Part shown: positions 4,496 through 63,345 of the stretch, one piece after another
How positions within the stretch are numbered: position 1 is the stretch's first letter
Layout: each line of letters opens with the position of its first letter
Assembly (NCBI RefSeq): GCF_000355805.1
Contig: NZ_CM001837.1
Coordinates: 1,451,127 to 1,515,126, forward strand
Source: Dokdonia sp. PRO95
GTDB lineage: Bacteria > Bacteroidota > Bacteroidia > Flavobacteriales > Flavobacteriaceae
Length of the DNA stretch: 64,000 nt
Direction: 5' to 3'
Notes under the pieces: generated by a model
Told to the model about the DNA's origin: nothing
What the model saw: the letters and a program-made list of their open reading frames with translations, nothing else
Database searches by the model: none
Translations under genes and position numbers: made by a program

Positions 4496-4511
4496 CGCTT
4501 TCGCGAAAGCG
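4496..4511. repeat. Iterated palindrome copy, perfect, intergenic
   Basis: CGCTTTCGCGAAAGCG, exact, flanked by TT and TTA; sits directly after a terminator. Confidence 0.9.
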
Positions 4512-4549
4512 TTATTTTAATTTTTCATCTACCTCTCAGATTGTTTTAC

Positions 4550-4745
4550 TCAATGCAAGAGCATTGGTATTAATACGCCTAAATTAAATGTAAAGCCATT
4601 TAAGGGTGTTTTGTGACGACTCTCTACATATTGAGCAAATACCGTTGGCAAGTCCTTAAAAACCATCTAGATTGTCATAGAGAAAGAAGTACTTAGACCA
4701 CGGCCATAATTGCGCTTTCATATCTAATTTACTCCGAGTTGATGT
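4550..4745 (-). pseudogene. Remnant of a minus-strand gene, C-terminal ~65 codons with one frameshift
   Basis: On the minus strand one frame reads STRSKLDMKAQLWPWSKYFF then YDNLDGF and stops; the next frame continues from the same point as DLPTVFAQYVESRHK and GFTFNLGVLIPMLLH before a TGA at 4552-4550. The join falls in a GGTTTTTAAGG run, typical of a one-base slip. The tail pattern (GFTFNLGVLIP) resembles the last strands of a beta-barrel or membrane protein, but I do not recognise the family. No start codon or 5' part remains upstream, so this is read as a decayed gene end. It fills most of the 430-base gap between the OmpA gene and blaI; the rest holds the terminator, the palindrome copy and the blaI operator. 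Confidence 0.35.
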
Positions 4746-4767
4746 AAAAGTCTCTTTAAAATATTCA

Positions 4768-4801
4768 AACTAAAACATTAGTTTAAACTAATGTTTTAGT
4801 T
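4768..4801. promoter_or_regulatory. Perfect 34-bp palindromic operator upstream of blaI, two tandem dyads
   Basis: The half AACTAAAACATTAGTTT is followed by its exact complement. Each half itself contains a 14-bp dyad of the form ACTAA-N4-TTAGT (4769-4782 and 4787-4800), so the element reads as two BlaI-type operators. It abuts a consensus -7 box (4801-4808) and would block the promoter when occupied. Assignment to the adjacent BlaI repressor is inferred from position and symmetry. Confidence 0.75.
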
Positions 4802-4808
4802 ATATTTG
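4782..4808 (+). promoter_or_regulatory. Predicted promoter of the blaI-M56 operon
   Basis: TATATTTG at 4801-4808 matches the Bacteroidota -7 consensus TAnnTTTG. A TTTA at 4782 stands in the -33 position and falls inside the palindromic operator. The start codon is 60 bases downstream. Confidence 0.55.
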
Positions 4809-4867
4809 GGTAATTAATACGAATAAGGATTATAATTTTGTAATTCAGAGGAATATAAAGCTCGACT

Positions 4868-5227: not shown

Positions 5228-5229
5228 TC

Positions 5230-6618
5230 ATGATAGCATATGTAATTCAAGTCATCTGTTTTCAAGCAATATTCTTAGCAGTGTATTATCTCCTATTAAG
5301 AAAGGAAACCTTCTTTGTATATAATAGAATTTACCTTCTATTGACACCTGTCATAGCACTCTTATTGCCATTTGTAAAAATTGCAAGTTTACAAACCGTA
5401 GTTCCCGTAGAGGTGATGTCTGTCATGTTACCAGAAGTAGTAATAGGTGAAGCAACTACGAGCCAATCAGAACAAACAAGCTCCTTTATCATTCCGTGGT
5501 TGAGTATTTACTTCGTAGGTGTTGCAGTAAGTGCATTACTTCTTGTGATAAAAATCAGAAGTTTCATTAACTATTTATCGTTTAAACGACGTGGTGAACA
5601 CATCATTAACGTACCTAACAGTACAGAAGCTTTTACCTTTTTTAAGTACATATTTATTGGAGAGGATATAGATACGCTTTCGCGAAAGCAAATCCTTACC
5701 CACGAACAGATACACGCAAAACAGGGGCATACTTGGGATCTTATCTTTTTTGAGATTATGAAAATCATCTTTTGGTTCAACCCATTGATATATTTCAATC
5801 AAAAACTGATAAGTACAGTTCATGAATACTTAGCCGATCAAAAAGCAACAGCAGCCTCATCAAAAAAAGCATACTACGAAGAGTTATTAAATACTGCCTT
5901 TGGCACTAATAACCTTTCTTTTACAAATACATTTTTCAATCAATCATTAATCAAAAATCGAATTATTATGTTACAAAAATCAAAGTCAAAAAAGAGTGCG
6001 TTAATCAAGTATGCCTTTATTGTTCCATTAGTTTTAGGAATGTTAGTCTATGTTTCATGTAGTGAGGATAATGAGCTGGTAGAAAATCAATCACTAGAGG
6101 AAAAAATAAGTGAACTACAATTGCTAATAGAGCAAAAAGAGAACCTTTCAAAAACAGAATCTCAAATGATCAATGATCTAAGTATGACATCAGCCAAAAA
6201 AACAAAAGGAACATCTGTGCATACTTTTAATATGAGTAAAGATGACGACGAATTAATAGAGGTTGTAGAAGAAGAGGTTGTATATGATGTCGATGAGAAC
6301 GGAAATATCCCATTTACAGTCATAGATGAAGTTCCAGTATTTCCTGGATGTGAGTCACTCACTTCAAATGAGCAACGTAGAGATTGTATGTCACAGAAAG
6401 TAGGTGTCTTGGTGAATTCTAACTTTAATGTTGCATTAGGCAAGGAGCTAAATCTCAAGGGTACTAACAGAATTTTTGCAAGTTTTAGAATTGATAAAAA
6501 TGGATACGTCACAAATCTAAGAACTCGCTCACCACACCCAGATCTTGATGCAGAAGCACAGCGTGTAATTTCTATGTTGCCAAAAATGAAACCGGTAAAC
6601 ACAATGGTGAAGAAGTAG
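5230..6618 (+). CDS. M56 family (BlaR1-like) membrane protease with frameshifted TonB-C-like tail
   Basis: The protein begins with four predicted membrane segments and carries the zinc site HEQIH (H158, E159, H162) in the M56 domain, with FFEIMKIIFWFNPL and the downstream HEYLADQKA glutamate helix. A further membrane segment (ALIKYAFIVPLVLGMLVYV) leads to a periplasmic region and a TonB C-terminal-like domain (FPGCES, ASFRIDKNGYVTNLRTRSPH). Family knowledge: M56 sensors cleave or trigger loss of the cognate BlaI. The frame ends at 6618 with the atypical tail KPVNTMVKK, because one base seems missing near 6592; the expected tail is present in another frame. A copy of the iterated palindrome (5675) encodes LSRKQ just before the zinc motif. 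Confidence 0.88.
   Translation: MIAYVIQVICFQAIFLAVYYLLLRKETFFVYNRIYLLLTPVIALLLPFVKIASLQTVVPVEVMSVMLPEVVIGEATTSQSEQTSSFIIPWLSIYFVGVAVSALLLVIKIRSFINYLSFKRRGEHIINVPNSTEAFTFFKYIFIGEDIDTLSRKQILTHEQIHAKQGHTWDLIFFEIMKIIFWFNPLIYFNQKLISTVHEYLADQKATAASSKKAYYEELLNTAFGTNNLSFTNTFFNQSLIKNRIIMLQKSKSKKSALIKYAFIVPLVLGMLVYVSCSEDNELVENQSLEEKISELQLLIEQKENLSKTESQMINDLSMTSAKKTKGTSVHTFNMSKDDDELIEVVEEEVVYDVDENGNIPFTVIDEVPVFPGCESLTSNEQRRDCMSQKVGVLVNSNFNVALGKELNLKGTNRIFASFRIDKNGYVTNLRTRSPHPDLDAEAQRVISMLPKMKPVNTMVKK
5675..5690. repeat. Iterated palindrome copy, one mismatch, inside M56 gene
   Basis: CGCTTTCGCGAAAGCA; last base differs. Translated as LSRKQ. Confidence 0.8.
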
Positions 6619-8439: not shown

Positions 8440-9576
8440 TTATTTCGTGTAGTTCCTACCTTTCCATTGGTAACTACTAGTAAGCGATCTTACGGCTATA
8501 TAAGTACTTAAAAACGGGTAACAAATCATCACGATTGGATACCATTTTAAATAACTTTTTCGGTTATAAAAAAAAGCTTCGGTGGCAATGAGGATAACAT
8601 CAACTACAAGTTTTATGACTAAGCCCATTAATATGATGGATTGGGTTTCCGCTTTCGCGAAAGCGTAATAAAGAACTCCCACAACACTTAAAAGATTAAC
8701 ACCCAAAACAAGAATCCCCATTAGTTTTGAGAACCAAAAGGTATAAGCACTAGACTTTGCCGCCCAGCGTGTGCGCTGTGCTATAAATATATTCCACTGC
8801 TCTTGAGGCTGTGTGGTTACAATCGCATATGGAGAGCGTAAATAGCTTATCCTATTTTTAAACTTCTCTTGAAATTTCTCGAGTAAAAAATGATCATCTC
8901 CACTAGCGATGTGATTATTATTTGCAAAGCCTTGAACGGCTGTAAAGGCTTCTTTATCATAAGCGAGATTTGCTCCGTTACATAAAAAGGGTAAGCCCAT
9001 ATAAAAGCTTCCGGCAGTAGCGCCCATAAGACTTAAAAAATCCAATTGCTCATAGGCAGTTAAAAATGAAGGCTGAACCGTGGAAGCGATGGCAACGGGC
9101 ATAATCACCATAAGTGGTGATTGTTGCTGGATGATAGCGTCTAATGTGTTGAGCCAGTTTACGGGCACGGTACAGTCGGCATCTGTGGTCACAATCCACT
9201 GGTGTTTACTGGTATGGATGGCGGTCTGGAGTGCATCTTTTTTTGGTGAAGCAGAGGTGCGCACGTTGTCTATAACATCAATGTTTGTAAGCGCACAACG
9301 CGATATACACTTATTTATGACCTCGAGAGAGTTGTCTGTAGAGGCATCATTTACTAAGATGATTTGCCAGCTGTTTTGTGGATAGTCAACTTCGGCTAGA
9401 GATTGCAGCAAGTTAGTAAGATGCGCTTCTTCATTTCTAAAGGGTACAATAACGGTAAATGTGGTAGTTGTAGCGTCACAAGATTGTGAGAACGTACCAG
9501 CGCGATTGATCTCAAGCGCAAAGCCGAGGATGATAATTCCATAGAGTAAGAAAACAAAAAACAGCATCCAGATCAT
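8440..9576 (-). CDS. Membrane-bound family 2 glycosyltransferase
   Basis: 378 residues with an N-terminal membrane anchor (MIWMLFFVFLLYGIIILGF), a GT-A catalytic domain with the nucleotide-sugar motifs VPFRNEEAHL, VNDASTDNS and TTDADC (the DxD metal site), SGDDHFLL and the QRTRW (QxxRW) acceptor-site motif, then three to four C-terminal membrane helices. This is the layout of processive or lipid-glycosylating GT2 enzymes. The start codon overlaps the stop of the upstream flippase-like gene (TAATG), so both are translated from one mRNA. Together they suggest glycolipid or surface glycan synthesis. A palindrome copy at 8650 encodes AFAKA in a loop between C-terminal helices. Confidence 0.88.
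   Translation of the reverse strand: MIWMLFFVFLLYGIIILGFALEINRAGTFSQSCDATTTTFTVIVPFRNEEAHLTNLLQSLAEVDYPQNSWQIILVNDASTDNSLEVINKCISRCALTNIDVIDNVRTSASPKKDALQTAIHTSKHQWIVTTDADCTVPVNWLNTLDAIIQQQSPLMVIMPVAIASTVQPSFLTAYEQLDFLSLMGATAGSFYMGLPFLCNGANLAYDKEAFTAVQGFANNNHIASGDDHFLLEKFQEKFKNRISYLRSPYAIVTTQPQEQWNIFIAQRTRWAAKSSAYTFWFSKLMGILVLGVNLLSVVGVLYYAFAKAETQSIILMGLVIKLVVDVILIATEAFFYNRKSYLKWYPIVMICYPFLSTYIAVRSLTSSYQWKGRNYTK
8650..8665. repeat. Iterated palindrome copy, perfect, inside glycosyltransferase gene
   Basis: CGCTTTCGCGAAAGCG, exact; translated as AFAKA on the minus strand. Confidence 0.9.
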
Positions 9577-10538
9577 TATACTGTCTTTATGGTGCTAGTA
9601 GGCTTTTGCACGAGCAAAAAGTAGGCGCCAGGTAATAGCGGTACTACTACATTGAGCAGCCACATTAAAAGTACAGTACTTAATACAATCTCTTCGGGTA
9701 CATTAAACCAGCCAAAAATGAGAACAGCCACACCACCGCGCACCACTACATCTAGTAACTGCATTACAGGTATAAGCGAGCTTACAAGGTAGGTAGCACA
9801 AATGCAAGCCATTACAAAAGGATAACTTGTGGTAGCTCCTAGCAGGTAGAGAATGAGGTAAAACTGATGTGCAAAAATGATATATCGTATAAAGGAAAAC
9901 AGTCGCACCTTCTTTTTGATGGGTACAGCAATAGATTTCCAGTACTTCTTGATTTTATACCAAGGATTTCCCTTGAGTGTCCAGTGTACACTTCGTAGTA
10001 TTTTAGGAAGTATCTGGTACAGCACGAGTGCCATAAATATGCTCAAACTCCAAAAGAATATCGCTGTCCCACTAGTGAAAAAGGCAATAACTCCTAAGCC
10101 AATGCTCCCAAAAATAAGCGTTGCCAGCAGCTGATACATATTGCCTATAAAGTTTAAGAAGAGTATCTGCTTGCGTTGCTCTTTTGGGTAATAGAGCGCC
10201 TTTGCACCATAGTCTCCAGCTTTTGCAGGAGTTACAAACCCTACGAGGTGAGCGGTGAGGGTTTGTATTGCGCTTTCGCTAAAGCGTACTAATCTGTATA
10301 TACTCACTAGAGTTTGCCATTTCTTGATTTCAAAAAACCAGTTGGCAGTAGTAAATAATAGTATAATTATAATATAGAGATATAACGATGATGTACTAAT
10401 TTCGGAAAGCTGAAATTGTAGCGACCGTAAATCACCGCGATCTAGTTTGTCATAAATAAAATAGCCAGCCAGTAGTACAATGAGAATCTTAAGAGTCGCC
10501 CAGAGTAATTGCGTAGCTTTGTGAGATAATCTAGGCAT
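9576..10538 (-). CDS. Lysylphosphatidylglycerol synthase TM-region / flippase-like (UPF0104) protein
   Basis: 320 residues, almost entirely hydrophobic, with seven to eight predicted membrane segments. It shows the family features: an N-terminal WATLKILIVLLAGYFIYDKL helix, an HLVGFVTPAKAGDYGAKALYY stretch (the conserved PxxxGD region, given here in part as TPAKAGDYG) and a C-terminal GPAYFL-like end (LLPGAYFLLVQK). This family resembles the membrane part of MprF without the aminoacyl-transferase domain and is often paired with glycosyltransferases, as here. A role in moving or modifying a lipid-linked glycan is inferred. The ATG at 10538 gives an N-terminus of normal length. A palindrome variant at 10271 encodes RFSES. 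Confidence 0.82.
   Translation of the reverse strand: MPRLSHKATQLLWATLKILIVLLAGYFIYDKLDRGDLRSLQFQLSEISTSSLYLYIIIILLFTTANWFFEIKKWQTLVSIYRLVRFSESAIQTLTAHLVGFVTPAKAGDYGAKALYYPKEQRKQILFLNFIGNMYQLLATLIFGSIGLGVIAFFTSGTAIFFWSLSIFMALVLYQILPKILRSVHWTLKGNPWYKIKKYWKSIAVPIKKKVRLFSFIRYIIFAHQFYLILYLLGATTSYPFVMACICATYLVSSLIPVMQLLDVVVRGGVAVLIFGWFNVPEEIVLSTVLLMWLLNVVVPLLPGAYFLLVQKPTSTIKTV
10271..10286. repeat. Iterated palindrome copy, one mismatch, inside flippase-like gene
   Basis: CGCTTTCGCTAAAGCG; central G changed to T, breaking the dyad centre. Encodes RFSES on the minus strand. Confidence 0.75.
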
Positions 10539-12367: not shown

Positions 12368-13126
12368 ATGCTTGCAACTATAACTCATAATAAAGAAACT
12401 TTTAAGGTCAATCTTTCAAAACCCATTGATCTCTCGATTCCCCTTACTTCTAAGAAGAATCCGCTGGCTTGGTATATTGACCCGCCTAAGTTTGAGACAG
12501 TCACAGATGGCGAGTGGGTAGGTAGTGTGCGCAAGGGAGGCGATGTAAATTTTACTACCATCACCTTTAACCCACATTCTCACGGCACGCATACAGAGAC
12601 CGCTGGTCATATCACAGAAAAGGTGCATAGCATTAATAAAAATCTCAAAACATTTTTCTTTATCGCAGAGGTGGTGACGGTCATACCAGAGCCGCTTGAT
12701 AATGAAGATGATGATTTTATACTAAGTGATAAGCAGTTTAAAAACCTACTTAAAGATAAATCACCAGAAGCTTTGGTGATACGTACATTGCCTAACGCAC
12801 GCGAAAAGAAAACAATGAACTGGTCTAACACAAACTGGCCATTTGTAGATGAGAGGGCGATGGTACGCTTTCGCGAAAGCGGTATAAAACACCTTCTCAT
12901 AGATTTACCTAGTGTAGATAAAGAAAAAGATGGTGGAGAGCTCAAGGGGCATCACGCGTTTTGGGATGTAAATGGTGAGATACGACTAGATGCAACTATT
13001 ACAGAGATGATCTATGTACCGCATAAAATTCCAGACGGGACGTATCTTCTTAATCTCCAGATTGCCTCTTTTGAAAATGATGCCACACCTAGTAAACCCA
13101 TTTTATATAAAATCGAAACAGAATAA
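12368..13126 (+). CDS. Cyclase / kynurenine formamidase-like metal hydrolase
   Basis: 252 residues from the ATG at 12368; a TTG twelve bases earlier opens the longest frame but adds nothing family-like. The metal-binding motif of the cyclase (Pfam PF04199) family is HSHGTHTETAGHI (residues 70-82), matching HxGTHxDxxxH with Glu in place of the usual Asp. LLIDLPSVDKEKDGG and KGHHAFWD are further family positions. Members hydrolyse formylkynurenine, cyclic amides or isatin; the substrate here is unknown. The last base of its stop overlaps the ATG of the next gene (TAATG), indicating coupled translation. A palindrome copy at 12866 encodes RFRES inside a family-conserved stretch. Confidence 0.85.
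   Translation: MLATITHNKETFKVNLSKPIDLSIPLTSKKNPLAWYIDPPKFETVTDGEWVGSVRKGGDVNFTTITFNPHSHGTHTETAGHITEKVHSINKNLKTFFFIAEVVTVIPEPLDNEDDDFILSDKQFKNLLKDKSPEALVIRTLPNAREKKTMNWSNTNWPFVDERAMVRFRESGIKHLLIDLPSVDKEKDGGELKGHHAFWDVNGEIRLDATITEMIYVPHKIPDGTYLLNLQIASFENDATPSKPILYKIETE
12866..12881. repeat. Iterated palindrome copy, perfect, inside cyclase gene
   Basis: CGCTTTCGCGAAAGCG, exact; translated as RFRES. Confidence 0.9.
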
Positions 13127-13656: not shown

Positions 13657-16600
13657 ATGCCTAACTATCATCTCTCATCCTCCTGTATCAAAAAAACGAT
13701 TATAACTAGGTATGCATACGTCCTGCTGGCTTTGCTTACCATAACTATTTCTTGTAAAGAGAAGAGCACACCTACAGACAATCTTTTTAAGTTTAAAGAT
13801 TACATTTCTTACACGACAGAGGGGCGACAGTCTGTTATGAGCCCTATACGTGTGGAGCTTGCACAGCCACTCACGCAGTTTGAGGTAGACCAAGTGCTAC
13901 CTAATGACATTATCAAAGTGCGTCCTAAAGTTTCTGGAGTGTTTAGTCTTCATAACAGTAGACTCTTAGAGTTTATACCAGAAGAGCCTCTCAAACCAGA
14001 CACGGCATACGAGGTCACTCTTATGCTTGATAAACTGTATGATGATCTTGACACAGGGAAGGAGCAATTTACTTTTGGCTTCAAGACCATTACTCCAGAT
14101 TTTAAAGTAGCGATGGGAGCTTTGCAATCATATAGTAAGGATTATAATTATCTAGAAGGACAAATAGAAGCGAGTGATGATATCGCTTTCGCGAAAGCGC
14201 AACAACTCATAAACGCCTCTCAAAATGGTAATGCACTAGCTGTAAAATGGTTTGATAAAGATGGGGTGTCTAGATTTCATTCATTTAGAATAGATAGCAT
14301 CTCCCGCACTAAGGCAGATTCACAAATTAGGGTTGCCTGGGATGGTAAAGCGATAGGGGCCAGAGACACAAATGGTAAGAACACCATACAAATACCGGGA
14401 AAAGATAATTTTAAAATCATAGGTATACATCAAGAGCGCGGCGCAAACGCCTCTGTGATTATAAATTTTTCTGACCCATTAAAGGATAACCAAAACTTTG
14501 CTGGACTCGTGACAATTGCGCGTGCAGGAAACCTTCGCTTTGAAGTAAATGGAAATGTACTACAGGTATATCCAGAAAATAAGATAGTAGGTAATGCACT
14601 GGTTGAGGTTTTTCAAGGAATAAAAAGTACTGATGACTATAAGTTGAAACAACCCTTTAAAGAGACCGTAAGTTTTGAGCAAATAAAACCTGCCATACGG
14701 GCTATCACAAATGGAGTTATTCTTCCAAAATCTACGAGTACTCCTTACTATTTTGAGGCAGTAAATCTTACACACGTAGACGTGAGAGTCATTAAGATTT
14801 ATGAAGATAATGTACTCGAGTTTTTACAAGAGGGATCGCTTAATAATACGAGTAGTTATAACCTTAAAAAAGTGGGTAGGCGCATAGCAAAAAAAACGAT
14901 TGAGATTGCAAAACAAGGTGATCTTAACACCGGCCAGTGGCAAGCTCACGGCGTAGATCTCTCAGCTATTTTTAAAGCAGACCCTGGAGCATTGTATAGA
15001 GTAGAGATAAGCTATAAACCTTCTTATGCTATTTATGAGTGTGATGATGCTGTTGCTGGTAGTGTAGAAGAAGATAGTTATGAGGACTATTATGAAGATG
15101 CATATACCGAGGCAGAAAGTCCAGATGAAGATGATAGAGAGGAGCAGTACTGGGATAACCGTATTTATAGATGGCGTAAGCAAGTGTACGACTGGAGACA
15201 AGAAGATAACCCTTGCCACCCTGCATACTATCAAGAGTCAAAATTTGTAAATAGTAATTTACTAGGGAGTAATCTAGGGGTGATTGTAAAAAAAGGAAAA
15301 GACAATTCTTACTTGTTTGCAACATCAGATATTGTGACTACTACGCCAGAGGCAAACACAAAAATCACATTATATAATTACCAAAAGCAACCCATTGCAA
15401 CAGTCACTACAGATGCCACTGGAATAGCTCAAGTAACACCAGATGGCTACCCAGTATATGCTGTTGCAGTAAAAGATGGAAACTATGCTTACTTAAAACT
15501 GCAAGATGGGCATAGTCTCTCTATGAGTAAATTTGATATTGCGGGTAATCAACTTGAGAAAGGGCTTAAAGGTTTTACCTACTTAGATAGAGGTGTGCAT
15601 CGCCCTGGTGACACCATCCATCTCACTTTTACACTTAATGATAAGGCAAACCCACTGCCAAAAGATCACCCAGTAAAGCTGGAAGTGACAGATGCACGAG
15701 GTAAACTTATGTATAGAAAGGTAGCGTCTGGATCAAAAGGAGGATCTCAAAATGGGAACCAAGCGCTTAATAACTTTTATTATTTCCCGGTTCCTACAGA
15801 GCAGGACGCTCCTACGGGTAACTATAATGCTACCATCTCTGTGGGAGGTGCCACATTTAACAAAACGCTCAAAGTAGAAACCATAAAACCTAATCGCCTC
15901 AAAGTAGATCTCACTTTTAAAGATGAGATACTACAAGCAAGCGGAAATCTATCGGGAGGTGCCACTGTAAAATGGTTACACGGAGCGCCTGCCAGAAATT
16001 TGAAAATTAAAACAGACGTGACTATACGCAAGTCAAGTAGCGGGTTTAGCAAGTTTCCTGGATATAATTTTTATGACCCAATTAGGGAGTTTGATGAGGT
16101 TAGTATGGATGTGCTAGACGGCACTCTGGATAATGAAGGCAACATAAAGATTAATAAAAAAATAGATTTGAGTAAGCGAGCACCGGGTATGCTCAAGGCA
16201 ACGTTTGTTACAAAAGCCTATGAGGGAGGAGGTGACTTCTCTCTAGATGTGGTAAGTAAGGATGTCGCACCGTTTGATCACTTTGTAGGTCTGCGAGCTC
16301 CAAAAAGTCGTGCCTACGGTAGTTATTACACAGATCAAAATATCGAGTTTGACCTAGCTACTACAAATGCTCAAGGCACACCAGCTGCGGGCCGTAAGCT
16401 TCAAGTAAAAGTATTTAAAATGTCTTGGCGCTGGTGGTGGAACAGGAGTAGAGATAATTACTCTAGTTATGAAACAAGTACCGTACATACACCGGTACAA
16501 AACTTTACAGTCACTTCTGGTTCTAACGGAAAAACAAGTTTTAATATCAATATTCCGGAGAAGGAAAGCGGGCGTTATCTTATACGTGTTATAGACCCAG

Positions 16601-19277: not shown

Positions 19278-21647
19278 ATGTACAGCCGCCTCCTACATAT
19301 CATAAAGCGCCATAAATTCAAGTTTATACTTGTGGTGTTATTTATGTTGTACTGGGCTTTTTCTATACCGCAGCAGGTTTTTAAAGATCCTCACGCTACC
19401 GTGGTTGAGAGTGCGAGTGGTGAGTTGCTGGGCGCCCGCATTGCTAGTGACGGGCAATGGCGTTTTCCGGTACTAGATAGTGTTCCTCATAAGTTTGAAA
19501 AGTGTATTCTGTTATTTGAAGATGAGTATTTTTATACCCACCCAGGATTTAATCCCGTGGCGATGGGGAAGGCAATATGGGGTAATATCACTACAGATAA
19601 GCGTCGTGGTGGGAGCACCATTACACAACAAGTAATTAGACTTTCTAGAAAAGGAAAACAACGCTCCTATACAGAAAAAGTAGTCGAACTTATAAAAGCT
19701 ACACGTCTCGAGGCAGGCTATTCAAAAGATGAAATTCTTGGTATGTATGCTACCTATGCGCCCTTTGGCGGTAACGTAGTAGGGTTAGAAACTGCCGCTT
19801 GGAGATATTTTGGACTCCCGGCGTCACAGTTAAGTTGGGGGCAAATGGCGGCACTGGCAGTATTACCTAACAATCCTAGTATGGTGCGACCGGGTAAAAA
19901 TGAGATTACGCTTTCGCGAAAGCGTAATAACCTCCTTAAAAAACTTTGGGAAACAGGAGAGATAGACAAAACTACCTACGAGCTATCGCTGCTAGAAAAA
20001 CTACCCGGAAAACCCTATCCATTACCACAAATTGCTCCTCATCTAGTTGATAGAATTACTAAAGAATCTCGTGGAAAAAGAGTTCAAACCACGGTACAAC
20101 TTCCTATACAGCGAGACCTTAATAGACTTGCCAAAGAGCATTATGGCCTGTTAAAGCAAAATGAAATTTACAACCTAGCGATAGTGGTTATGGATGTAAA
20201 TACAAAAGAGGTTTTAGGCTATGTAGGAAACGCACCAACAGATGCAGCACACCAAAAAGACGTAGATGTTATCACAAAATACCGCAGCACAGGAAGCACG
20301 TTAAAGCCATTGCTTTATGCGGGAATGCTAGATGAGGGACTCATACTGCCACAAACATTAGTCCCAGATATACCTACAAGTATCAATACGTATAGACCAC
20401 AAAATTTTGACAACGAGTATCAAGGCGTAGTTCCGGCAGATGTGGCTCTTGCAAAATCGCTCAATGTACCTGCAGTGCGATTACTACGTGAGTACGGGCT
20501 AGATAAGTTTTATAAAAATGTGCAAGAGATGCATATGGGAGGTATAAATAAACCCGCCTCTCACTACGGACTTGCAATGATATTAGGAGGTGCAGAGAGC
20601 AGTCTTTTTGAGTTGACAAAAACCTATGCAGGGATGGCAAACACCCTTAACACATTTAATAGGTCTAGTAGTGAGTACACTTTGGAGTCTTTTAGCGATT
20701 ATCACTATGTCAAAAGAGATAATCTGGCTTCTGTAAAAAAGAGTGTCACGTTGCAAAGCGAGTCCGAGATATTTTCGGCGGGAGCGATTTATAAAACGCT
20801 TGAGACACTGCAAACTGTAAATAGACCAAGCGGCGAAGAAAACTGGCAGTTTTATGAAGATGCCCAGCCTGTGGCTTGGAAAACAGGGACAAGTTTTGGT
20901 TTTAAAGATGCGTGGGCAGTAGGGGTTACGCCTCAATATGCAATAGGAGTGTGGGTAGGTAATGCAGATGGAGAAGGAAGACCAGGGATTACAGGAATAC
21001 AAGCAGCAGCGCCATTGTTTTTTGATGTCTTGCGTAGCTTGCCAGTAAATGGCTCTTGGTTTGACACTCCATACGATGCACTCGTGGAGACCACGGTTTG
21101 CACAAAAAGCGGAATGAAAGCGAGTCCATATTGTGTAGAAACACGTAAAGAGCAAATACCTCACGCGGGAGAGCACACAGCTTCTTGCTCATATCACAAG
21201 CAAATGTACCTCTCTGCAAATAAGGAATATCTAGTAAACTCAGATTGTTATGAGCTTGATGAGATGACGGCTGTCACCTATTTTACGCTACCTGCTACAA
21301 TGGAGTATTACTATGCAAGCAAGCATCCAGATTATAAAGAATTGCCACCATACCATCCAGATTGTAGCTTTTCTGGAGAAATGCCTATGGCATTTATGTA
21401 TCCTAAAAATAATGAAGGTGTTATTCTTCCCAAGGATTTTGATGCAGCAGTAAACGATGTTGTGTTTAAAGTCTCTCACCGTAACCCTGAGACTAAGATT
21501 TTCTGGTATCTAGATAATGAGTTTATAGGAGCTACAGAAGATTTTCACGAGCTAGCTGTTACGCCAGAGGTGGGAAATTATACACTCACTGTAGTAGATG
21601 CAGCGGGTAATGAAATCAAGAAAAAAATTGAGGTTTCTAGGGGTTAA
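19278..21647 (+). CDS. pbpC: Penicillin-binding protein 1C
   Basis: 789 residues: one N-terminal membrane anchor (FILVVLFMLYWAFSI), a GT51 glycosyltransferase domain (catalytic Glu81 in FEDEYFYTHPG; RRGGSTITQQ; KAIWGN), a transpeptidase domain with the active serine Ser340 in STLK and the K535TG motif in WKTGTSFGFKDAWAVG, and a C-terminal BiPBP_C domain (residues ~700-789). It polymerises and crosslinks peptidoglycan in the periplasm. The 5-base spacing to the A2M gene marks a conserved two-gene operon. A palindrome copy at 19909 encodes LSRKR within the GT51 domain. Confidence 0.95.
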   Translation: MYSRLLHIIKRHKFKFILVVLFMLYWAFSIPQQVFKDPHATVVESASGELLGARIASDGQWRFPVLDSVPHKFEKCILLFEDEYFYTHPGFNPVAMGKAIWGNITTDKRRGGSTITQQVIRLSRKGKQRSYTEKVVELIKATRLEAGYSKDEILGMYATYAPFGGNVVGLETAAWRYFGLPASQLSWGQMAALAVLPNNPSMVRPGKNEITLSRKRNNLLKKLWETGEIDKTTYELSLLEKLPGKPYPLPQIAPHLVDRITKESRGKRVQTTVQLPIQRDLNRLAKEHYGLLKQNEIYNLAIVVMDVNTKEVLGYVGNAPTDAAHQKDVDVITKYRSTGSTLKPLLYAGMLDEGLILPQTLVPDIPTSINTYRPQNFDNEYQGVVPADVALAKSLNVPAVRLLREYGLDKFYKNVQEMHMGGINKPASHYGLAMILGGAESSLFELTKTYAGMANTLNTFNRSSSEYTLESFSDYHYVKRDNLASVKKSVTLQSESEIFSAGAIYKTLETLQTVNRPSGEENWQFYEDAQPVAWKTGTSFGFKDAWAVGVTPQYAIGVWVGNADGEGRPGITGIQAAAPLFFDVLRSLPVNGSWFDTPYDALVETTVCTKSGMKASPYCVETRKEQIPHAGEHTASCSYHKQMYLSANKEYLVNSDCYELDEMTAVTYFTLPATMEYYYASKHPDYKELPPYHPDCSFSGEMPMAFMYPKNNEGVILPKDFDAAVNDVVFKVSHRNPETKIFWYLDNEFIGATEDFHELAVTPEVGNYTLTVVDAAGNEIKKKIEVSRG
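19909..19924. repeat. Iterated palindrome copy, perfect, inside pbpC
   Basis: CGCTTTCGCGAAAGCG, exact; the flanks TTA and TAA extend the dyad to 22 bp. Translated as LSRKR. Confidence 0.9.
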
Positions 21648-26501: not shown

Positions 26502-26517
26502 CGCTTTCGCGAAAGCG
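26502..26517. repeat. Iterated palindrome copy, perfect, 8 bases after the mscS stop
   Basis: CGCTTTCGCGAAAGCG, exact; flanks TTA/TAA extend the dyad to 22 bp. Intergenic. Confidence 0.9.
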
Positions 26518-38903: not shown

Positions 38904-38919
38904 CGCTTTCGCGAAAAAT
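38904..38919. repeat. Iterated palindrome copy, half-decayed, intergenic
   Basis: CGCTTTCGCGAAAAAT; left arm intact, last three bases differ. Just after the lacI stop. Confidence 0.6.
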
Positions 38920-45619: not shown

Positions 45620-48600
45620 TAATCAGGGATTTGTATGTTATAAACTTGTGCTGCTTCATTATTAAAAGTAACGAGCAAGTATGAAATATTGTTTACGGTT
45701 ATAATATCTAAATGTCTTATCGATTTCTGTGCAAAGTCTAGCCCTAGTTCATATCCTAAAACCACCTCGTTTTCTGATGCTATTAGTGCCCCAGAAAACG
45801 AATCTAGCCTACCGTGATATGGTTTTGTGCCAAAATAATTTCCTCCAGCTATTGCTTCCTCATTGCCATCGCCATTAAAGTCGTAAACCACGAAATCCAT
45901 AATAGGAGCTACTTGCAATGCACCCGTGAAAGGTACAAAAGTAAAAATTCCTTTTTCATTTTTTAAATATCCGGAGGTCAGGGTGTTTACTTCAAATCGT
46001 TGAGCGGCTCGGAGTGCTTTTTCTCCAAAAATTTGGGATACAGTGTCTCCCGCAAAATCATTATTATTTGCGTATTTCTTTTTAAGAAATACGAGTTGAG
46101 CGCCTAGCTCTTGTAGATTTTGAATAGGGTAGTAGTTTCCGTCTTTTGCCGTAGTAACAATAGTTTCTGTTTGCCCGTTATTATCAAAATCTGAGTAATA
46201 CATTGTCATGGGAAACGCTGTAGATGCCGTAAACTTACTGTTTGTTCCCCAGTTCCCAAGCAGGTAATCCATATCACCATCATGATCTATATCAAAAGGT
46301 TGTATGCTTTGCCATAAACCATTAAGAGTGGCGTCTAGCCCTTCTTCTTTTTTAAGAATACCATCTTCATTTTTATAAAAAAGTGGCTGCATCCATTCTC
46401 CTATGACAATTAAATCAGTGGCGCCATCAGCATTAAAATCTGTCCATACGGCATCTGTAACCATTCCTATCTCGCCTAGAGGGTTGTCTTGATCCTCTAC
46501 AAACTTACCTCCGTCATTCTTTAAAAGAAATGATGCTGGAACTTTTCCAAAGTCGCCAGTTACGGCGTGATTACCCACAAAGAGATCCTTGTCTCCATCA
46601 TTATCATAATCACTTGTGATAATGATTGAGGTGTTAGCTCGTATGCCTGACATCTCCATGGTTAAGGTGTCTGATACTTTTAAATAATAGTTTTCTAAAG
46701 CCTCGTTCATTTCGGAAAAATCACCACCTGCTGTACCTACAATAATTTCATTGTTAAGGATAGTAGCTGTCACATCCTCTGTTTTTAAAAGTGATTGTAA
46801 TGGTTTTGAGTACGCTTTCGCGAAAGCGTTATTTCCTCCAGTATACACAGCCGAAGGTATAAACTTAGAACTGCCGAAATAGATGTCGTCATGACCATCA
46901 CCATTTATATCGCCAATTGCCGTTGCAGGACCACGGTCAGATATTTGATAAGGAATTAGTTGCTGCCTATTGAAATCTATATACGCATCTTCCTTGTGTA
47001 TATAGTCTATTCCTAAATTATTTGGTTCTTTAGAAAATAGCGGCTTGCTTTTTATTTGAAGTAAACTATAGTCAAAAGTAGTTGTGTTTTGCGGAGATAA
47101 GGACAATGTTTGATTTGTAGGGATATCGTATAACACTTGCTGCTTGTTATCTGGCCAAATAATGCGAAGTGAGTCTATTGAAGTATTCTTTTTAAAACCA
47201 AAATGAACAACCGGCTCAGAGGATGCTTGAAATCCTCGGGCAGTATACATTTCCTTGTATTGTAATGTTCCATTTTGATATGCAAAAACCTTAGTGCCTA
47301 TACCGAGCGAATTAGCTTTAGAATATTTAAACTTTAATTTTAAAAAGGTTGCTGTAGTGTCTGTTTGGTTCACATAAATAGTTGCCTCTTGATTTATGTT
47401 ATTTACAACAACATCAAGGTCCCCATCATTATCAAGATCTGCCAGCGCAGAAGCACCAGACACCGTAGGTTTTTTGTCAATCCACACTCCAGATTGATCT
47501 GTAAAGACGAGATCTTCATTTCCTTGATACACGTAGTTGTGTGAAGCACCATCAGGCATAAGATTAAGAGCTTCGTTATCTAGAAGTCTTGTCTCGTTGA
47601 GCCTGTTTTGAATCTTACCGCTAGAAATAAAATTAATAAAATCAAGATTATTAGGTCGTTTTGGGATACCATTTGAAATAAATAAGTCTTGATTGCCATC
47701 TTGATTAAAATCTGCAAAGAGGGCACTCCAGCTCCAGTCTGTTGCCGCAACTCCAGAGGAAAGGGCACGTTCTTGAAATTGATATCCCGGCTGATTTACA
47801 AATAGCATATTACGGGTAAACTGGTAGTGATACCCAAAACGTTCTGTACGCAGTTTTTGCGTTTGGATATTATCATCACCTTCGGAGGCTTTTAAAACAT
47901 TCTCGTCTTCTGGTAACATATCGAGTGACATGAGATCAGGGAAACCATCATGGTTAAGATCTGAAGCGTCATTACCCATTGAAAATCTTGAAGTGTGTGG
48001 GAATTGTTCTTTTAAGCTTTCGCGAAAGCGTAATCCTCCTTCATTGATATAGTAATAGTCATCCTCATGAAAGTCATTACCTACGTAAATATCTGGATAA
48101 CCATCCTGATTGAAATCTGCAATAGAAATACCTAGGCCATACCCATTGATACCGCCAAAAATGCCCATTTCTTCACTGACATCTGTAAAGGTATTTCCAT
48201 CGTTTCTAAGAAGCTTGTCTCCCGTTTTGTCGTTACGTTCTAAACGTAAATTTGCATGACCAAATGAGGATTCTGTATGTACAGCATGGTTGAGTAAATA
48301 CAGGTCGAGATCACCATCTTTATCATAATCAAGAACGGCGGCGGTGGTTCCATAATTTTGAAAATCAAGACCAAACTCTGCAGCACGCTCTGTAAAAGTC
48401 TCATCACCATTATTTATAAAAAGCTCGTCGTGTCCTTGGAAATTATTTATCCCTACTACGGAACGCACATAGATATCTAACAGTCCATCTGAGTTTGCGT
48501 CAAACATTATTGTTCCCGTATTCCAAGAGCTTTTTCCTGCTACACCAGCACTAGCCGAGATATCTTTAAACGTAAGATCACCATTATTGAGGTAGAGCTT

Positions 48601-52205: not shown

Positions 52206-55200
52206 TTAGTCGTCTTTTCTTATGAATAATGGGGTGTCATTATTCCTTCCTATAAGGTAATAGGTTGTTCCAGAAATGGTAATTGTTTGTATGCTTCTGG
52301 AAGCTCCTAAAATATTAAATTTTGGTTGTTTTTCTATGCGGAAGAAGCCCTTTTTATCGTTGATAAGGAGAACGCCTTGTGATCCATCTAGTCTTCCTAG
52401 TTGAGTGCTTATTTCATAATCATTGCCTACTAACAATACATCTTTATAACCATCGTCATTTATATCATCTACTAGAATGTCATGAACAGATGAGATTTGA
52501 GAAAGTAGTGGTAGCTCATGTGCTGTAAATGTATTGTCTCCGTCGTTTTCAAAATACATGGAAGCAAGTTGTGTGACAGACTTTACTTGAGCATCCCTTA
52601 GTTTATCTTGAGGTAGTATTTCTTTAAATTTCGCTTTCGCGAAAGCGTTATAAGACAAGTATTTCTTATTGAGTTGAGGTAGCTGTTTTACGAGTTCATC
52701 TTTTGTTGCAATGGTAGTTTCTTCTCCTTGATAATAATACGTTACAATAGGGTCGTGAGTTCCATTGCTGTCAAAATCTTGAATATATAACTGTAATGGT
52801 TGGTCTGCAGAAGCAGTAAGTCTTGAATTAAGTCCCCAATTTCCAGCAATGATATCTAAATCCCCGTCATTGTCAAAGTCTGCTACTTTTAATGAATTGA
52901 ACCACCCTTTAAACGCTTCTAATCCGTCATTATCCTGCTTTGAAAGCTTGGTTCCATCATTAAGAAAAACTGCAGGAGGCATCCAGTGCCCTATAACTAC
53001 AGCATCCTTATAGCCGTTGTTATCTATATCTATCCATTGAATATCTCGGACGTTTCCTATACGTTGAAACAATGTGCTGTACTGAGTTGTGACATCCTTA
53101 AAAACACCTTTCCCATTGTTCTCAAGAATATATTGCAGTGGAGTAGTGCCAAATTGTTGAGGAATCACGTCACTAGTTATAGATATATCGAGATCCCCAT
53201 CGTTATCGATATCAATGGCTTTTACGGTGGATGCGTTTACTGCTATATCTGAGAATGCAGTCTCGTCGTAGGATAATGATGTTCCATGATTAATATATAA
53301 TCTTGGTTGAAGAGGCTTGCCAGATTTTATTTCATTCCCACCGCTTACTATAATTAAGTCGTTTAAGGAATCGCCATTTACATCTGCAATGACACCATCA
53401 ATGTCCTCATGTATTTGATGTTTATCATTTTCCGGGAGATGTACTTCGTTAAATGTACCTGAGGATGTCTGTATGTAAGTTGTAGATTCTTCTATTTTAG
53501 AACCAAGAGCAACCATGTCATCAAGTCCATCATTATTTAAATCTCCAGCAACAATTGCTTTACTAAGGTTAGTAGATGCATAAGGTACAAGGGGATTCCG
53601 GCTGAATTCTAGCGTGGCGTTATCTATATGTTTGAAAGGTATAATGCTGTCAGTTATTTGTGCTTTTAATGTTTCTTTTTGGCTAGAAGAAGCCGCAGAA
53701 GATGTATCATATGCTAGAGTAATAATTTGATCTGCTTTTATGTTTTTCAAGGTTTGCTTCTTACCGTCTGCCCACATAATACTGAGAGAATCGATACTCT
53801 TCTGTTTGCCTAAACCAATTGATAATTCAGGTGCTATAGAAGACAAGTATCCCCTAGTAGTATAGTTTTCAAAATATTGATAGTTTGTTGCGGTGTATAC
53901 ATGAACTTGTGCTCCAATACCCAAGGTATTTTGAGGAGATCCTTTAAAACGAATCTTCAGATAATGCATACTATCCTTTAATTGTTGGGTTTTGTTTTCT
54001 AGTAAATAAGCCTGTTCATTTACATTATTTACTATGATGTCTAGATCACCATCGTTATCTAAATCTGCATAACTACTTCCGTTACTAAAGGAGGTACTAC
54101 TCTCTATCCACGATTTTGAGGTGTTCTCAAAAGTTCCATTACCATTATTTGAGAAGAAATAGTTTTCTGTTTTCTTCTGTGGTATTTCGTCTAATAGCGG
54201 AAGTTCCTTGTCAGTCATGCGACTGCCTATCCTCTTTTGAATATTTTCATTGGATATAAAATTTATAAAATCCATATCATTTGTAGCTCCTACGATGCCG
54301 TTTGTGATGTATATGTCTTTATCACCATCGTTGTCAAAATCGGCAAGTAGGGGAGACCAGCTCCATTCCGTACTTGAAATGCCGCTTAGAAAAGCCGTCT
54401 CAGTAAATTGCTCTTTCCCTTGATTAATATGTAAGGTGTTTTGCATGAATTGAGGTTGATATCCTTGACGTAACTGATTCTGGAAAATAGGGAAATTAAA
54501 TTCCGTTCCAGATGATTTTAAGGTTTCTAAATTCTCTGGTAGCATGTCTACAGATAGGATATCGGTAAACCCATCATTATTGATGTCTGCAATATCATTA
54601 CCCATAGAAAAATGGCTAGTGTGACCTAACTTTCCTTCTGTAGTATTGACTTCTTTAAAGGTTCCATCAGTTTGATTTATATATAGATAGTCATCCTCAA
54701 AGAAATCATTACCTATATAAATGTCAGGATAACCATCGTTGTTTATATCACTTATGGCAAGTCCTAGTCCGTAACCTATTCTAGATGAAAATATATTCGC
54801 TTTCGCGGAAACGTCTATAAAAACACCATCTCGATTTTCTAATAGTTTGTCTCCACTGATGCTATCCACCTTTGTGCGCTGACTTCCTCGACCAAAATAT
54901 GCATTAGGATATAAAGAATGCCCCATGATATAGGCATCAAGATCGCCATCATTATCATAATCAAAAAAGGCAGATTGAGTAAACAATCCAGATAGATCTA
55001 ATTGGTATTTTTTTGATTCTTCTTTAAAGGCCATTTGGCCATTGTTGAGACCTTGATTTACGTAGAGAAGATTATGCCCTTTAAGTTTTAAATGCCCAGC
55101 TACTTTAGATATATAGATATCTAGTAGTCCGTCATTATTAATGTCTACAGTAGTTACACCTGTAGTCCACCCAGTATCATTAGAGATGCCTGCTTGTATT

Positions 55201-60471: not shown

Positions 60472-60591
60472 GTGAACAAGGGGAGATTTGTAAGAATACC
60501 ATAATATTTGATTGCTTTGATTGTCATATTATGATTTAAATAGCCCAAGTTTTTTTATATAATTACTTAAAATTGTTTTTAAGTCATATAT

Positions 60592-60605
60592 CACCGCCAT
60601 CGGTG
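60592..60605. promoter_or_regulatory. Inverted repeat upstream of the GH13 promoter
   Basis: CACCG-CCAT-CGGTG. It lies 11 bases before a -7 box (60617-60624), where a -33 element would be expected, so it may bind an activator. Nothing else is recognisable in the remaining SusC/GH13 gap. Confidence 0.5.
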
Positions 60606-60616
60606 TCGCATTTGGC

Positions 60617-60624
60617 TAACTTTG
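60617..60624 (+). promoter_or_regulatory. -7 box of the GH13 gene
   Basis: TAACTTTG matches TAnnTTTG; no TTG is present at the proper distance upstream. Confidence 0.5.
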
Positions 60625-60668
60625 ATCAGATTTTATTATTAGTCTAATTTCACACAAAAAGGAATCTT

Positions 60669-62111
60669 ATGAAAAAGTATTTTTTAAGCTTAGCTGTACT
60701 CGTTACAACACTATTTTCTTGTGAATTCAATACTTCAAATGAATCTCCCGCTTTCGCGAAAGCGTTATCAAACACCTCTTTCCAGTTTGATGAAACCATG
60801 GAAGAGTCTGGGGTTATATATGAAGTGAATATAAGGCAGTACTCCGCCGAAGGAAACTTTGCATCTTTTACAAAAGATATACCTGTAATAAAAGAGTTAG
60901 GGGTTAAGATACTCTGGGTGATGCCTATTTTTCCTATTTCCGAAACTAATAGAAAGGGGGAGTTGGGGAGCTATTATGCAGTGTCAGATTTTAGAGAGGT
61001 AAACCCTGAGTTTGGCACTTTGCAAGATGTGGATGATATGATTAAGGTTGCTCATGAGCATGGAATAGCTGTTGTGCTGGACTGGGTGCCTAATCATACG
61101 GGATGGAATCACACGTGGATTACAAAGCACCCCGAATGGTATACTCAAAATGATAAAGGAGAGATTGTTGATCCTATAGATCCAGCAACCGGTAAATCGT
61201 GGGGATGGACTGATGTGGCAGATCTTAATTACGATAATCAAGCCATGCGCGATGAGATGATTGCAGATTTGTTGTATTGGGTACAAGAACATGATATTGA
61301 TGGTTTTAGAATGGATGTTGCTCATAAAGTGCCAGTACCATTTTTCAAGAAAGCAATAGATTCTCTTGAGCAAATAAAGTCACCGCTATTTATGCTTGCA
61401 GAAGCAGAGCAAGAGGATCTTATGGCAAATGGTTTTGATATGCACTACGCCTGGCAGATGCATCATTTACTTAATGAAATAGCCAAAGAAGAAAAAAGTG
61501 TAGAGGACTTCTGGACACTACTCGCACAGTATGACCAAACACTAGCTCAAGATGATATGAATATGTACTTTGTTACAAATCATGACGAAAATAGCTGGGC
61601 AGGAACGCTAGGTGAGCGCATGCCAGACAATAAAGAGATCTTTACCACACTTACCTATATGTTGCCAGGCATGCCTCTTGTTTATAGTGGGCAGGAATAT
61701 GATCTGGATAAACGATTAGCCTTTTTTGAAAAAGATAGTATACCTAAGGAACGAGGAGATTACTTTGAATTATTAGCAACCCTCGGGGCTCTTAAAAATA
61801 ATAATACGGCACTGCATGGTGGTAAAGAAAAGGCTTCACTTATAAAGATAGATCTAAGTCACCCAGCTGTAATGAGTTTTGGAAGAGAAAAGGAAGCAGA
61901 GCAATTAGTATTCATTGGTAATTTCTCAAGCAAGACTGTAAAAACTACCTACCCATATAGCGGTACGTTTACAGATATGGTAAACGATAAGGAGGTGCTC
62001 ATAAGCTCAAATGATGGATTTGTACTAGAGCCTTGGGAGTTTTATATCTTAGAGCCTGTGAATACACTTATCTTTGACACTCGTATTGTACCAGATGTCG
62101 CACATGAATAA
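60669..62111 (+). CDS. Alpha-amylase family (GH13) lipoprotein
   Basis: 480 residues with a lipoprotein signal (MKKYFLSLAVLVTTLFSCEF, Cys18). The GH13 catalytic triad is visible: nucleophile Asp216 in GFRMDVA, acid Glu245 in MLAEAEQ, and Asp306 in TNHDEN; region I is VVLDWVPNHTG. It is a surface or periplasmic alpha-glucan hydrolase. The start of the mature protein contains a palindrome copy encoding AFAKA. It diverges from SusC with a shared regulatory region and ends 8 bases inside the next gene. With the LacI module it completes a maltodextrin pathway. Confidence 0.93.
   Translation: MKKYFLSLAVLVTTLFSCEFNTSNESPAFAKALSNTSFQFDETMEESGVIYEVNIRQYSAEGNFASFTKDIPVIKELGVKILWVMPIFPISETNRKGELGSYYAVSDFREVNPEFGTLQDVDDMIKVAHEHGIAVVLDWVPNHTGWNHTWITKHPEWYTQNDKGEIVDPIDPATGKSWGWTDVADLNYDNQAMRDEMIADLLYWVQEHDIDGFRMDVAHKVPVPFFKKAIDSLEQIKSPLFMLAEAEQEDLMANGFDMHYAWQMHHLLNEIAKEEKSVEDFWTLLAQYDQTLAQDDMNMYFVTNHDENSWAGTLGERMPDNKEIFTTLTYMLPGMPLVYSGQEYDLDKRLAFFEKDSIPKERGDYFELLATLGALKNNNTALHGGKEKASLIKIDLSHPAVMSFGREKEAEQLVFIGNFSSKTVKTTYPYSGTFTDMVNDKEVLISSNDGFVLEPWEFYILEPVNTLIFDTRIVPDVAHE
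60749..60764. repeat. Iterated palindrome copy, perfect, inside GH13 gene
   Basis: CGCTTTCGCGAAAGCG, exact; translated as AFAKA in the linker after the lipidated cysteine. Confidence 0.9.
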
Positions 62112-63345
62112 ATTTGATATACTTATAGTAGGTGGAGGAGCAGCCGGTTTTTTTACAGCTATTAATATAGCCGAGAAGAGACCATCGCTTAAAATTGCCA
62201 TTTTAGAACGAGGCAAGGATGTGCTTACCAAGGTGAAAATCTCTGGAGGTGGGCGTTGTAATGTGACTCACGCCGAGTTTATACCTAAAGAACTTTCAAA
62301 AAAATATCCTCGTGGTCAAAAAGAGTTGCTAGGGCCATTTCATACGTTTATGACTGGTGATACTATTGCTTGGTTTGAAGAGCGCGGTGTCGAACTGAAA
62401 ATTGAGGAAGATGGGAGGATGTTCCCCATTACAGACTCTTCATCTACCATTGTAGATTGTTTTTTAAGGGAGGCTCGTAAGCACAATATTGAAGTACTTA
62501 CTAATCATTCTGTGCAAGATGTTGGTTTTGATTCCGCTTTCGCGAAAGCGAGAATTTCAAATAAAGATCCCTTTTATGTAAAGACGAGTAAAGGTGATTT
62601 CACATGTGAGCACCTTGTAATGACTACTGGAAGTAATCCTAAAATGTGGTCATTATTGCAAAAATTAGGTCACTCTATTACAGATGCAGTGCCATCACTT
62701 TTTACTTTTAATATCAAGGATAAAAAGATAGAGGGTCTAATGGGGCTGGCAACTAATGTCACAGTAAAGGTGCTAGGAACCAAACAGAAATCTGAAGGTC
62801 CTTTGCTTATAACTCACTGGGGAATGAGTGGTCCAGCTATTTTAAAACTCTCTGCATGGGGAGCAAGAGAACTTGCCGACCTGAAATATCAATTTGAGAT
62901 TCAAGTAAACTGGCTGCAGTTTCTTACACAAGAAGATGCTTTAGATGAGCTTTTAGAGCTCAAGTTGAAACACGCAAAACAGTCTCCGTTTACCTATGCA
63001 CAACTTGAGTTGCCTAAGCGTTTATGGCATAATTTATTAACGGCCTCAGGGATTCAGCAGGCTACCAAGTGGGCAGAACTCACGAAGGCGCAATTACAGT
63101 CATTAAGCCGAGAGCTCACGCAATCCCGTTTTCGCGTAAGCGGGAAAAGTACTTTTAAAGAGGAGTTTGTAACTGCGGGAGGTGTTAACCTAAAGGAGGT
63201 GAACTTTAAAACCTTTGAAAGTAAAAAAGTACCAAGTCTTTATCTTGCAGGTGAGGTGCTCAATATAGATGCAATTACGGGTGGTTTTAATTTTCAAAAT
63301 GCATGGACGGGAGGCTATCTTGCTGCTCAGGCTATAGATTCTTAA
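62104..63345 (+). CDS. HI0933-type NAD(P)/FAD-dependent oxidoreductase
   Basis: 413 residues from the ATG at 62104 (MNKFDILIVGGGAAGFFTAI), with alternatives at 62095 and 62074 that would overlap the amylase gene further. The GGGAAGFF dinucleotide motif, SGGGRCNVTHAEFIPKELSK (family hallmark) and the C-terminal LYLAGEVLNIDAITGGFNFQ and AWTGGYLAAQ (FAD closure) are all present. BaiN/HI0933 proteins are flavoenzymes, some reducing bile-acid-like substrates; the substrate here is unknown. Palindrome copies at 62535 (AFAKA) and 63127 (variant, RFRVS). It overlaps the GH13 gene by 8 bases, probably co-transcribed. Confidence 0.9.
   Translation: MNKFDILIVGGGAAGFFTAINIAEKRPSLKIAILERGKDVLTKVKISGGGRCNVTHAEFIPKELSKKYPRGQKELLGPFHTFMTGDTIAWFEERGVELKIEEDGRMFPITDSSSTIVDCFLREARKHNIEVLTNHSVQDVGFDSAFAKARISNKDPFYVKTSKGDFTCEHLVMTTGSNPKMWSLLQKLGHSITDAVPSLFTFNIKDKKIEGLMGLATNVTVKVLGTKQKSEGPLLITHWGMSGPAILKLSAWGARELADLKYQFEIQVNWLQFLTQEDALDELLELKLKHAKQSPFTYAQLELPKRLWHNLLTASGIQQATKWAELTKAQLQSLSRELTQSRFRVSGKSTFKEEFVTAGGVNLKEVNFKTFESKKVPSLYLAGEVLNIDAITGGFNFQNAWTGGYLAAQAIDS
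62535..62550. repeat. Iterated palindrome copy, perfect, inside HI0933-type gene
   Basis: CGCTTTCGCGAAAGCG, exact; translated as AFAKA. Confidence 0.9.
63127..63142. repeat. Iterated palindrome copy, two mismatches, inside HI0933-type gene
   Basis: CGTTTTCGCGTAAGCG; translated as RFRVS, close to RFRES. Confidence 0.65.

Follow-up and report, generated by a model that had tools for sequence, protein, structure and literature searches.

Copies of a repeated palindrome in the window

The window analysed here is a stretch of 64,000 nucleotides from Dokdonia sp. PRO95 (Bacteroidota; contig NZ_CM001837.1, positions 1,451,127 to 1,515,126), and the element under study is a 16-bp palindrome that recurs along it in exact and near copies, to which, as palindromes, no strand was assigned. 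Exact copies number 13, all of them at the positions named in a preliminary description made from the sequence alone, and their excess over chance was borne out: none occurred in 100 dinucleotide-preserving shuffles of the window, and the PRO95 genome (3,305,093 bp) holds 577 exact 16-mers against 0 for a reversed-letter control. The inner 14-mer was counted 794 times in the same genome. The five one-mismatch copies claimed earlier were recovered, and two copies with two mismatches bring the window to 20 within at most two mismatches. As for the "about five half-decayed" copies of that description, several with 3-4 mismatches were found (e.g., at 17480, 23802, 35364, 35937 and 38904), but those at 35364, 35937 and 38904 belong to a class of one-armed sites, which have the core and one full arm. 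The 22-bp form TTA...TAA is the strongest portion of a longer graded flank and not a fixed element (3 occurrences in the window, 6 in 400 kb).

Three copies had been called intergenic and ten genic; we counted four outside and nine inside open reading frames (ORFs) of at least 150 aa. The four outside are 4496..4511, which lies 66 bp past the stop of an OmpA-family ORF and whose core is kept in the comparison genome G016 at 75% local identity, 22659..22674, and two that are present as the full 22-mer (26502..26517 and 30979..30994). The nine inside lie within ORFs for a glycosyltransferase (8650..8665), a putative cyclase (12866..12881), an alpha-2-macroglobulin-like protein (14184..14199; its core is conserved across the 5 Dokdonia genomes in the comparison), penicillin-binding protein 1C (PBP1C; 19909..19924), a GH65 protein (40386..40401) and an HI0933-like protein (62535..62550), close to the 5' end of an alpha-amylase-family ORF (60749..60764), and within two further ORFs (46813..46828, whose core persists in G016, where local identity is 66%, and 52632..52647).

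Among the one-mismatch copies, 5675..5690 differs at the last base, has an intact core and is kept in G016 (72% local identity); 43066..43081 and 48015..48030 differ at the first base, and their cores are kept in G016 at 69% and 76% local identity, respectively; 28938..28953 has an intact core; and 10271..10286 has an altered core at a place where G016 has a perfect site. Both two-mismatch copies (54798..54813 and 63127..63142) have altered cores. One-armed sites stand at 35364..35379, 35937..35952 and 38904..38919, the last two with the core kept in G016. The first of these follows shortly after a tRNA gene at 35159-35240, which is the sole Rfam match in the window at the gathering threshold.

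Anatomy of the site

Site anatomy was determined in 444 kb of PRO95 DNA, comprising the window and 19 of 20 further stretches (the stretch L034 lies inside the window and was dropped from pooled counts). The site is longer than 16 bp: a strict core, TTTCGCGAAA, is bordered by near-strict GC arms and then by weak outer arms, giving a dyad of ~52 bp. The sample contains 138 occurrences of TTTCGCGAAA and 140 of TTCGCGAA, and every one of the 138 cores has at least one GC arm. Among the 137 core sites with long enough flanks, 103 are two-armed and 34 one-armed; in the latter the other arm starts with A in 30 of 34 and reads AT[G/T]TGA in 10 of 34.

The flank comparison drew on five Dokdonia genomes (175 sites) and on two genomes (148 sites) of a second genus, that of the genome G027, introduced below; the strict core with graded flanks is present in both genera. 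Directly outside the 14-mer stands a strong G, followed mostly by TAA in Dokdonia versus (A/G)AA in the second genus, and in both the outer arms are A/C-rich and G-poor to ~19 bp. Between the two arms, A+C scores show a weak negative correlation (-0.20, p 0.009; -0.18, p 0.03), as would be expected if total binding strength were maintained; C counts alone are slightly positively correlated (0.13 and 0.09).

Distribution among genomes

The preliminary description had called for counts over the complete genome and its relatives, and these gave hundreds of copies per genome within two genera. Across 98 relatives, all 17 genomes of the same genus hold 138-711 exact copies; outside Dokdonia, G027, from another genus, holds 495, four genomes hold 1-4 and 76 hold none. 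All 23 genomes of the second genus hold 288-857 copies, and the inner 14-mer reaches at most 6 copies in each of 394 other genomes of the phylum. The motif is thus a feature of two genera (18 Dokdonia and 23 second-genus genomes), with at most 6 copies in each other genome examined.

A PBP1C tree with 30 rows places the motif-bearing genera apart, such that two changes are needed (one change sufficed in 0 of 200 bootstrap trees), and a topology forcing them together was rejected by the approximately unbiased test (p-AU 0.008). Genomes that are motif-free or hold at most 4 copies (G044, G056, G058 and G029) are closer to Dokdonia in this tree, a result from a single gene in which G027 sits on a long branch.

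Sparse copies in other genera were followed as a possible lead to a transcription factor and this lead was dropped, as they lie mostly in ordinary genes, several of them in the same gene across genomes. In G226, all four 14-mers fall within 16 kb (L124, 2001-17692), beside genes that by eye are of efflux type; this cluster is perhaps DNA transferred from a motif-bearing genus.

Conservation, origin and turnover

The core is kept in G016 at 16 of 16 alignable window sites, with random 10-mers kept in 46% of cases overall; five of the kept sites lie at the local identities of 66-76% given above. In four other genomes at 69-73% identity the core is kept in 9 of 9 comparisons, which represent three different sites only, and random 10-mers in 4-6%. 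Two-way comparisons of sites (kept/changed) gave 17/1 for PRO95-G016, 3/4 for G011-PRO95, 3/4 for G011-G016, 2/0 for G017-PRO95, 4/3 for G011-G017 and 4/7 for G013-G010; the pairs overlap in the genomes used and so are not independent, and the row L012-G017 (8 kept, 0 changed) was excluded, as the two names stand for a single 346,120-bp contig. Sites are therefore conserved in place far above background, yet are turning over.

No gap is present in 16 of the 19 changed rows; some sites face a near-site, e.g., GCTTTTGCAAAAGC, and others face sequence that differs widely. The copy in PBP1C gives the same picture. Six of its orthologues were collected from Dokdonia (99-70% identity) and ten from other genera or flavobacterial bins (61-46%); the exact 16-mer occupies identical codons in the window and in 6 of 6 Dokdonia orthologues, and 10 of 10 orthologues from other genera align gap-free without it. 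G027 also lacks it there. In most cases seen, copies thus form by substitution rather than by insertion.

Identity between the window and G016 (L267-L269) is itself uneven: over window positions 9000-33000 it rises from ~0.75 to ~0.97 for ~23 kb, and after 43 kb it is ~0.70-0.72. From the alignment, this mosaic on a ~20-kb scale looks like a large tract of between-species recombination.

Placement and spacing

ORF calls of at least 80 aa put the coding share at ~90%. By these calls the 103 two-armed sites divide into 53 intergenic and 50 coding ones, and the 34 one-armed sites include 23 in intergenic DNA, where enrichment is approximately five-fold. Intergenic copies occur in convergent, divergent and tandem gaps alike. 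Coding sites prefer the frame that reads AFAKA in PRO95 (29/50) and not in G027 (15/41).

Cores are more evenly distributed than random (variance/mean per 20 kb of 0.25, P 0.0005, 20 stretches), at a density of one per ~3.2 kb in PRO95 to ~5.2 kb in G027. Adjacent gaps of <1 kb are depleted, with 14 observed vs 42.0 expected in PRO95 (159 sites), 5 vs 15.3 in the genome G486 (79 sites) and 1 vs 13.2 in G027 (77 sites); these deficits were reached in at most 0.05% of 2000 simulations, and three control palindromes behaved normally. Copies avoid one another below 1-2 kb. No regional bias was seen in the 20 evenly placed PRO95 stretches (4-8 cores per 20 kb), and two PRO95 stretches picked for having zero 16-mers contain other cores.

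The contents of large site-free gaps were examined in one 340-kb stretch of G486. Found in the four largest complete gaps were a ribosomal-protein/rpoA/enolase operon, an integrative element that encodes an integrase and a relaxase, two very large ORFs (1813 and 1566 aa) and the JetABCD genes of Wadjet; a gap at the end of the stretch, completed by L276, measures 20.4 kb and contains ORFs of 1462-1793 aa. Sites are under-represented in coding DNA and, by the gap contents of this one stretch, also in DNA that is constrained or newly acquired. The Wadjet genes lie at L175 1244-7296, where the JetA ORF as called (314 aa) begins at profile position 176, so that its start may be missed or the gene broken.

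Carriage by phages

The 16-mer was found in 41 viral stretches, of which single copies in some GC-rich viral contigs look like chance occurrences. Two groups carry multiple sites and, from their gene content, look temperate. The first is related to Cellulophaga phage phi39:1 through its major head protein; the one 30.6-kb contig examined encodes an integrase and has 5 cores spaced 4.0-8.0 kb apart. The second has a Mu-type portal and a baseplate hub resembling that of the transposase-bearing Winogradskyella phage Peternella_1, and holds 6 exact copies in 37 kb; a site is equidistant from the hub gene in two phages that are 64% alike there. Site density in these temperate-type phages matches that of the host. 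Phage relatives at up to 58% identity have no sites in the stretches examined (30 of 30 and 8 of 8 loci), and phi39:1 and Peternella_1 have none.

An uptake-signal-like sequence as the favoured reading

The suggestion that the palindrome is an orientation-free, genome-wide target of some DNA-binding machinery is supported by these results. DNA-uptake sequences were absent from the roles listed in the preliminary description, yet theirs is the natural history that fits best. We give a probability of roughly 45% to the reading that the palindrome is a genome-wide self-signature acting like the uptake signal sequences (USS) of Pasteurellaceae and the DNA uptake sequences (DUS) of Neisseriaceae, spread by molecular drive. 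Under this reading, a putative receptor or processing protein would recognise the ~52-bp dyad through its TTTCGCGAAA core, GC arms and A/C-rich outer arms, and site-bearing fragments would enter, or be processed, more efficiently. Because site-bearing alleles would enter and recombine more often, sites would accumulate through point mutation and biased replacement wherever sequence constraint permits, and a neighbouring site on the same fragment would dilute the drive on each, spacing the copies out. We infer biased uptake as the driving force, the existence of a receptor and the transformability of these bacteria. The fuller proposal, that Bacteroidota have a palindromic, dyad-symmetric self-recognition signal which two genera share by way of a transferred or convergent reader, and that this reader imposes even sites on chromosomes and temperate phages through molecular drive, is put forward more tentatively still.

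The uptake reading is favoured because USS/DUS offer the nearest documented natural history. The summary of PMC7811141 names Pasteurellaceae and Neisseriaceae as the families with uptake sequences, and the paper describes USS as arising by point mutation without being inserted, as having a strict core with weak flanks and a fairly even distribution, and as avoiding constrained and new DNA. The PRO95-type site resembles them in a copy number that runs to hundreds or thousands, in arising through point mutation, in having a strict core beside weaker flanks, and in its evenness, avoidance of constrained or new DNA, flank variants between lineages and presence in temperate phages; it is unlike them in being a dyad-symmetric palindrome, in occurring in Bacteroidota and in being less dense. 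Haemophilus phage HP1 has 17 USS in 32 kb vs 0.17 expected, which shows that such sites can be present in a temperate phage whose host has uptake sequences. The recombination-like identity mosaic between the window and G016 also speaks for this reading. Among Bacteroidota, Riemerella columbina, called a flavobacterium, is reported in PMC7965970 to take up its own DNA preferentially, the candidate signals named there being A-rich k-mers only.

Several points weigh against this reading. To our knowledge, no USS or DUS is palindromic. Our literature search returned no paper joining Dokdonia with "natural competence" and none joining "uptake sequence" with Bacteroidota. One gene tree places the two genera apart, and a 14-mer common to both would then call for a reader that they share or that was transferred. 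ComEC is present in 41 of 41 motif genomes and also in 16 of 16 control genomes, and so does not discriminate. A receptor was sought by outlying identity between 435 PRO95 and 689 second-genus ORFs, covering part of each genome, and the 86 pairs included no convincing candidate. Comparisons of less closely related Dokdonia species show differences at as many as 7 of 11 sites. The core density is also lower than the H. influenzae USS figure of ~1 per 1 kb (given in PMC7811141). Selection for any spaced chromosomal site would likewise be expected to give evenly placed copies that avoid constrained genes; Karlin is cited for that view, and for even spacing, in PMC1939737, which itself judges USS/DUS less even than compaction would require.

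Close pairs of sites were also considered as marks of an autoregulated reader gene, and no gene was common to them. If the uptake reading is true, the motif would be a third, unrelated case of an uptake signal, a palindromic one borne by 41 genomes and by phages, would permit an independent test of the molecular-drive model, and would point to a new reader in Bacteroidota.

Alternative explanations

One alternative stays close, because the site is dyad-symmetric and because our searches yielded neither a reader nor a report of competence. In this main rival to the uptake reading, which we nevertheless regard as unlikely, the palindrome is a chromosome-organising or topology site, at which a dimeric nucleoid, condensin-loading or topoisomerase-related protein would bind a ~52-bp dyad every ~3-5 kb, with selection keeping all regions supplied. 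The dyad symmetry and long graded footprint would suit such a protein, as would the strongly regular spacing, with no regional gap visible across the 20 stretches, and the phage contig likewise supplied at 4-8 kb spacing. So large a redundancy, however, should leave weak selection on each site, yet conservation is far above background, and gaps of 10-20 kb are tolerated. Noc, parS and SlmA-type sites are palindromes of 12-16 bp scattered over the chromosome, and Noc and MatP sites show bias relative to origin (ori) or terminus (ter). The present motif is like the former in being palindromic and spread over the chromosome, and unlike them in its number (577 16-mers, 794 14-mers), in showing no regional or ori/ter bias in the 20 stretches compared and in having no special ParB-type paralogue. 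A ParB paralogue as reader was in fact searched for and set aside, none being special to motif genomes: ParB_N gave one match in 10 of 12 Dokdonia genomes and in G027, and G010 and G015 have a second match, of a type that motif-poor relatives also have. Were this rival true, the motif would be a new sort of densely and evenly spaced bacterial chromosome site.

Less probable is a Chi-like role, in which the site would curb the degradation of DNA ends by AddAB or stimulate recombination and, being palindromic, would work from both sides. The motif is like Chi in recurring every few kb, at a density close to that of E. coli Chi, in its surroundings, the strand 5' of the site being GT-rich on both strands, and in its presence in phages; it is unlike Chi in being palindromic, longer and orientation-free, the Chi sites known to us being of 5-8 nt and none palindromic. 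Nor is the arm alone enriched outside the palindrome, since 219 of 262 occurrences of GAAAGCG in the PRO95 sample have the CGAAAGCG extension. The nuclease family PF12705 was present in all 21 genomes searched and RecC absent from 45 of 46 (the exception, G058, L156, is unlike its relatives), as a Chi-like role for AddAB would have it. In an AddB tree of 20 rows, a clade joining Dokdonia to the second genus is not rejected (p-AU 0.33), but neither is one of Dokdonia with G029, G044 and G056 (p-AU 0.50), and so the tree gives Chi no positive support. These clade tests are as compatible with a transfer of AddB between the motif genera as with its absence. The second-genus AddB (L242, L232, L233, L239, L241) is unusually diverged, on a very long branch of 1.29 changes per site.

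More doubtful again is a palindrome made or kept through methylation-dependent repair in the manner of the cyanobacterial highly iterated palindrome HIP1. The likeness in spirit to HIP1 drawn earlier is upheld, both being highly iterated palindromes formed by substitution in genic and intergenic DNA, and the altered base of one-off sites falls among the outer bases in 21 of 26, a bias that Elhai 2015 (PMC4390886) also describes for HIP1. The motif differs from HIP1 in sequence, in its greater length and ~52-bp graded footprint, which is unexpected for a methyltransferase, and in its far lower density, the figure for HIP1 in the same paper being ~1 per 1000 nt. A methylating protein had been among the proposed binders, but none of three methyltransferase families tracks the motif. 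PF00145 had no match in 7 of 12 Dokdonia genomes and PF01555 nothing above the cut-off in 12 of 12, leaving neither genus-wide; PF02384 was found in 12 of 12 Dokdonia and 6 of 7 second-genus genomes, as this explanation would favour, but also in 11 of 11 controls, and G495, the sole genome of the 30 without it, is motif-rich (563 copies). The earlier remark that no description of this sequence was known also stands, in that the exact 16-mer was not found in the literature searched, where a search with the 10-mer core returned papers that, judged by their titles, appear unrelated.

Scarcely credible is a mobile palindrome, as once proposed, or a hairpin or terminator element: palindromy and the five-fold intergenic enrichment would suit either, but length is unchanged in the 16 of 19 changed rows and at the PBP1C site, so that the copies are not insertions in the manner of repetitive extragenic palindromic (REP), Rickettsia palindromic (RPE) or miniature inverted-repeat transposable element (MITE)-like elements, and the arms beyond the core show no covariation and match no better than shuffled pairs (7-12 bp out, worse than shuffled), so that neither this lack of a pairing constraint nor the occurrence of copies in every type of intergenic gap, unrestricted to 3' ends, agrees with intrinsic terminators. 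A search of a plasmid collection with a single 701-bp piece of the window gave no match. A second repeated palindrome, CCTCTTCGAAGAGG, is present in 4 copies in 400 kb of PRO95 DNA.

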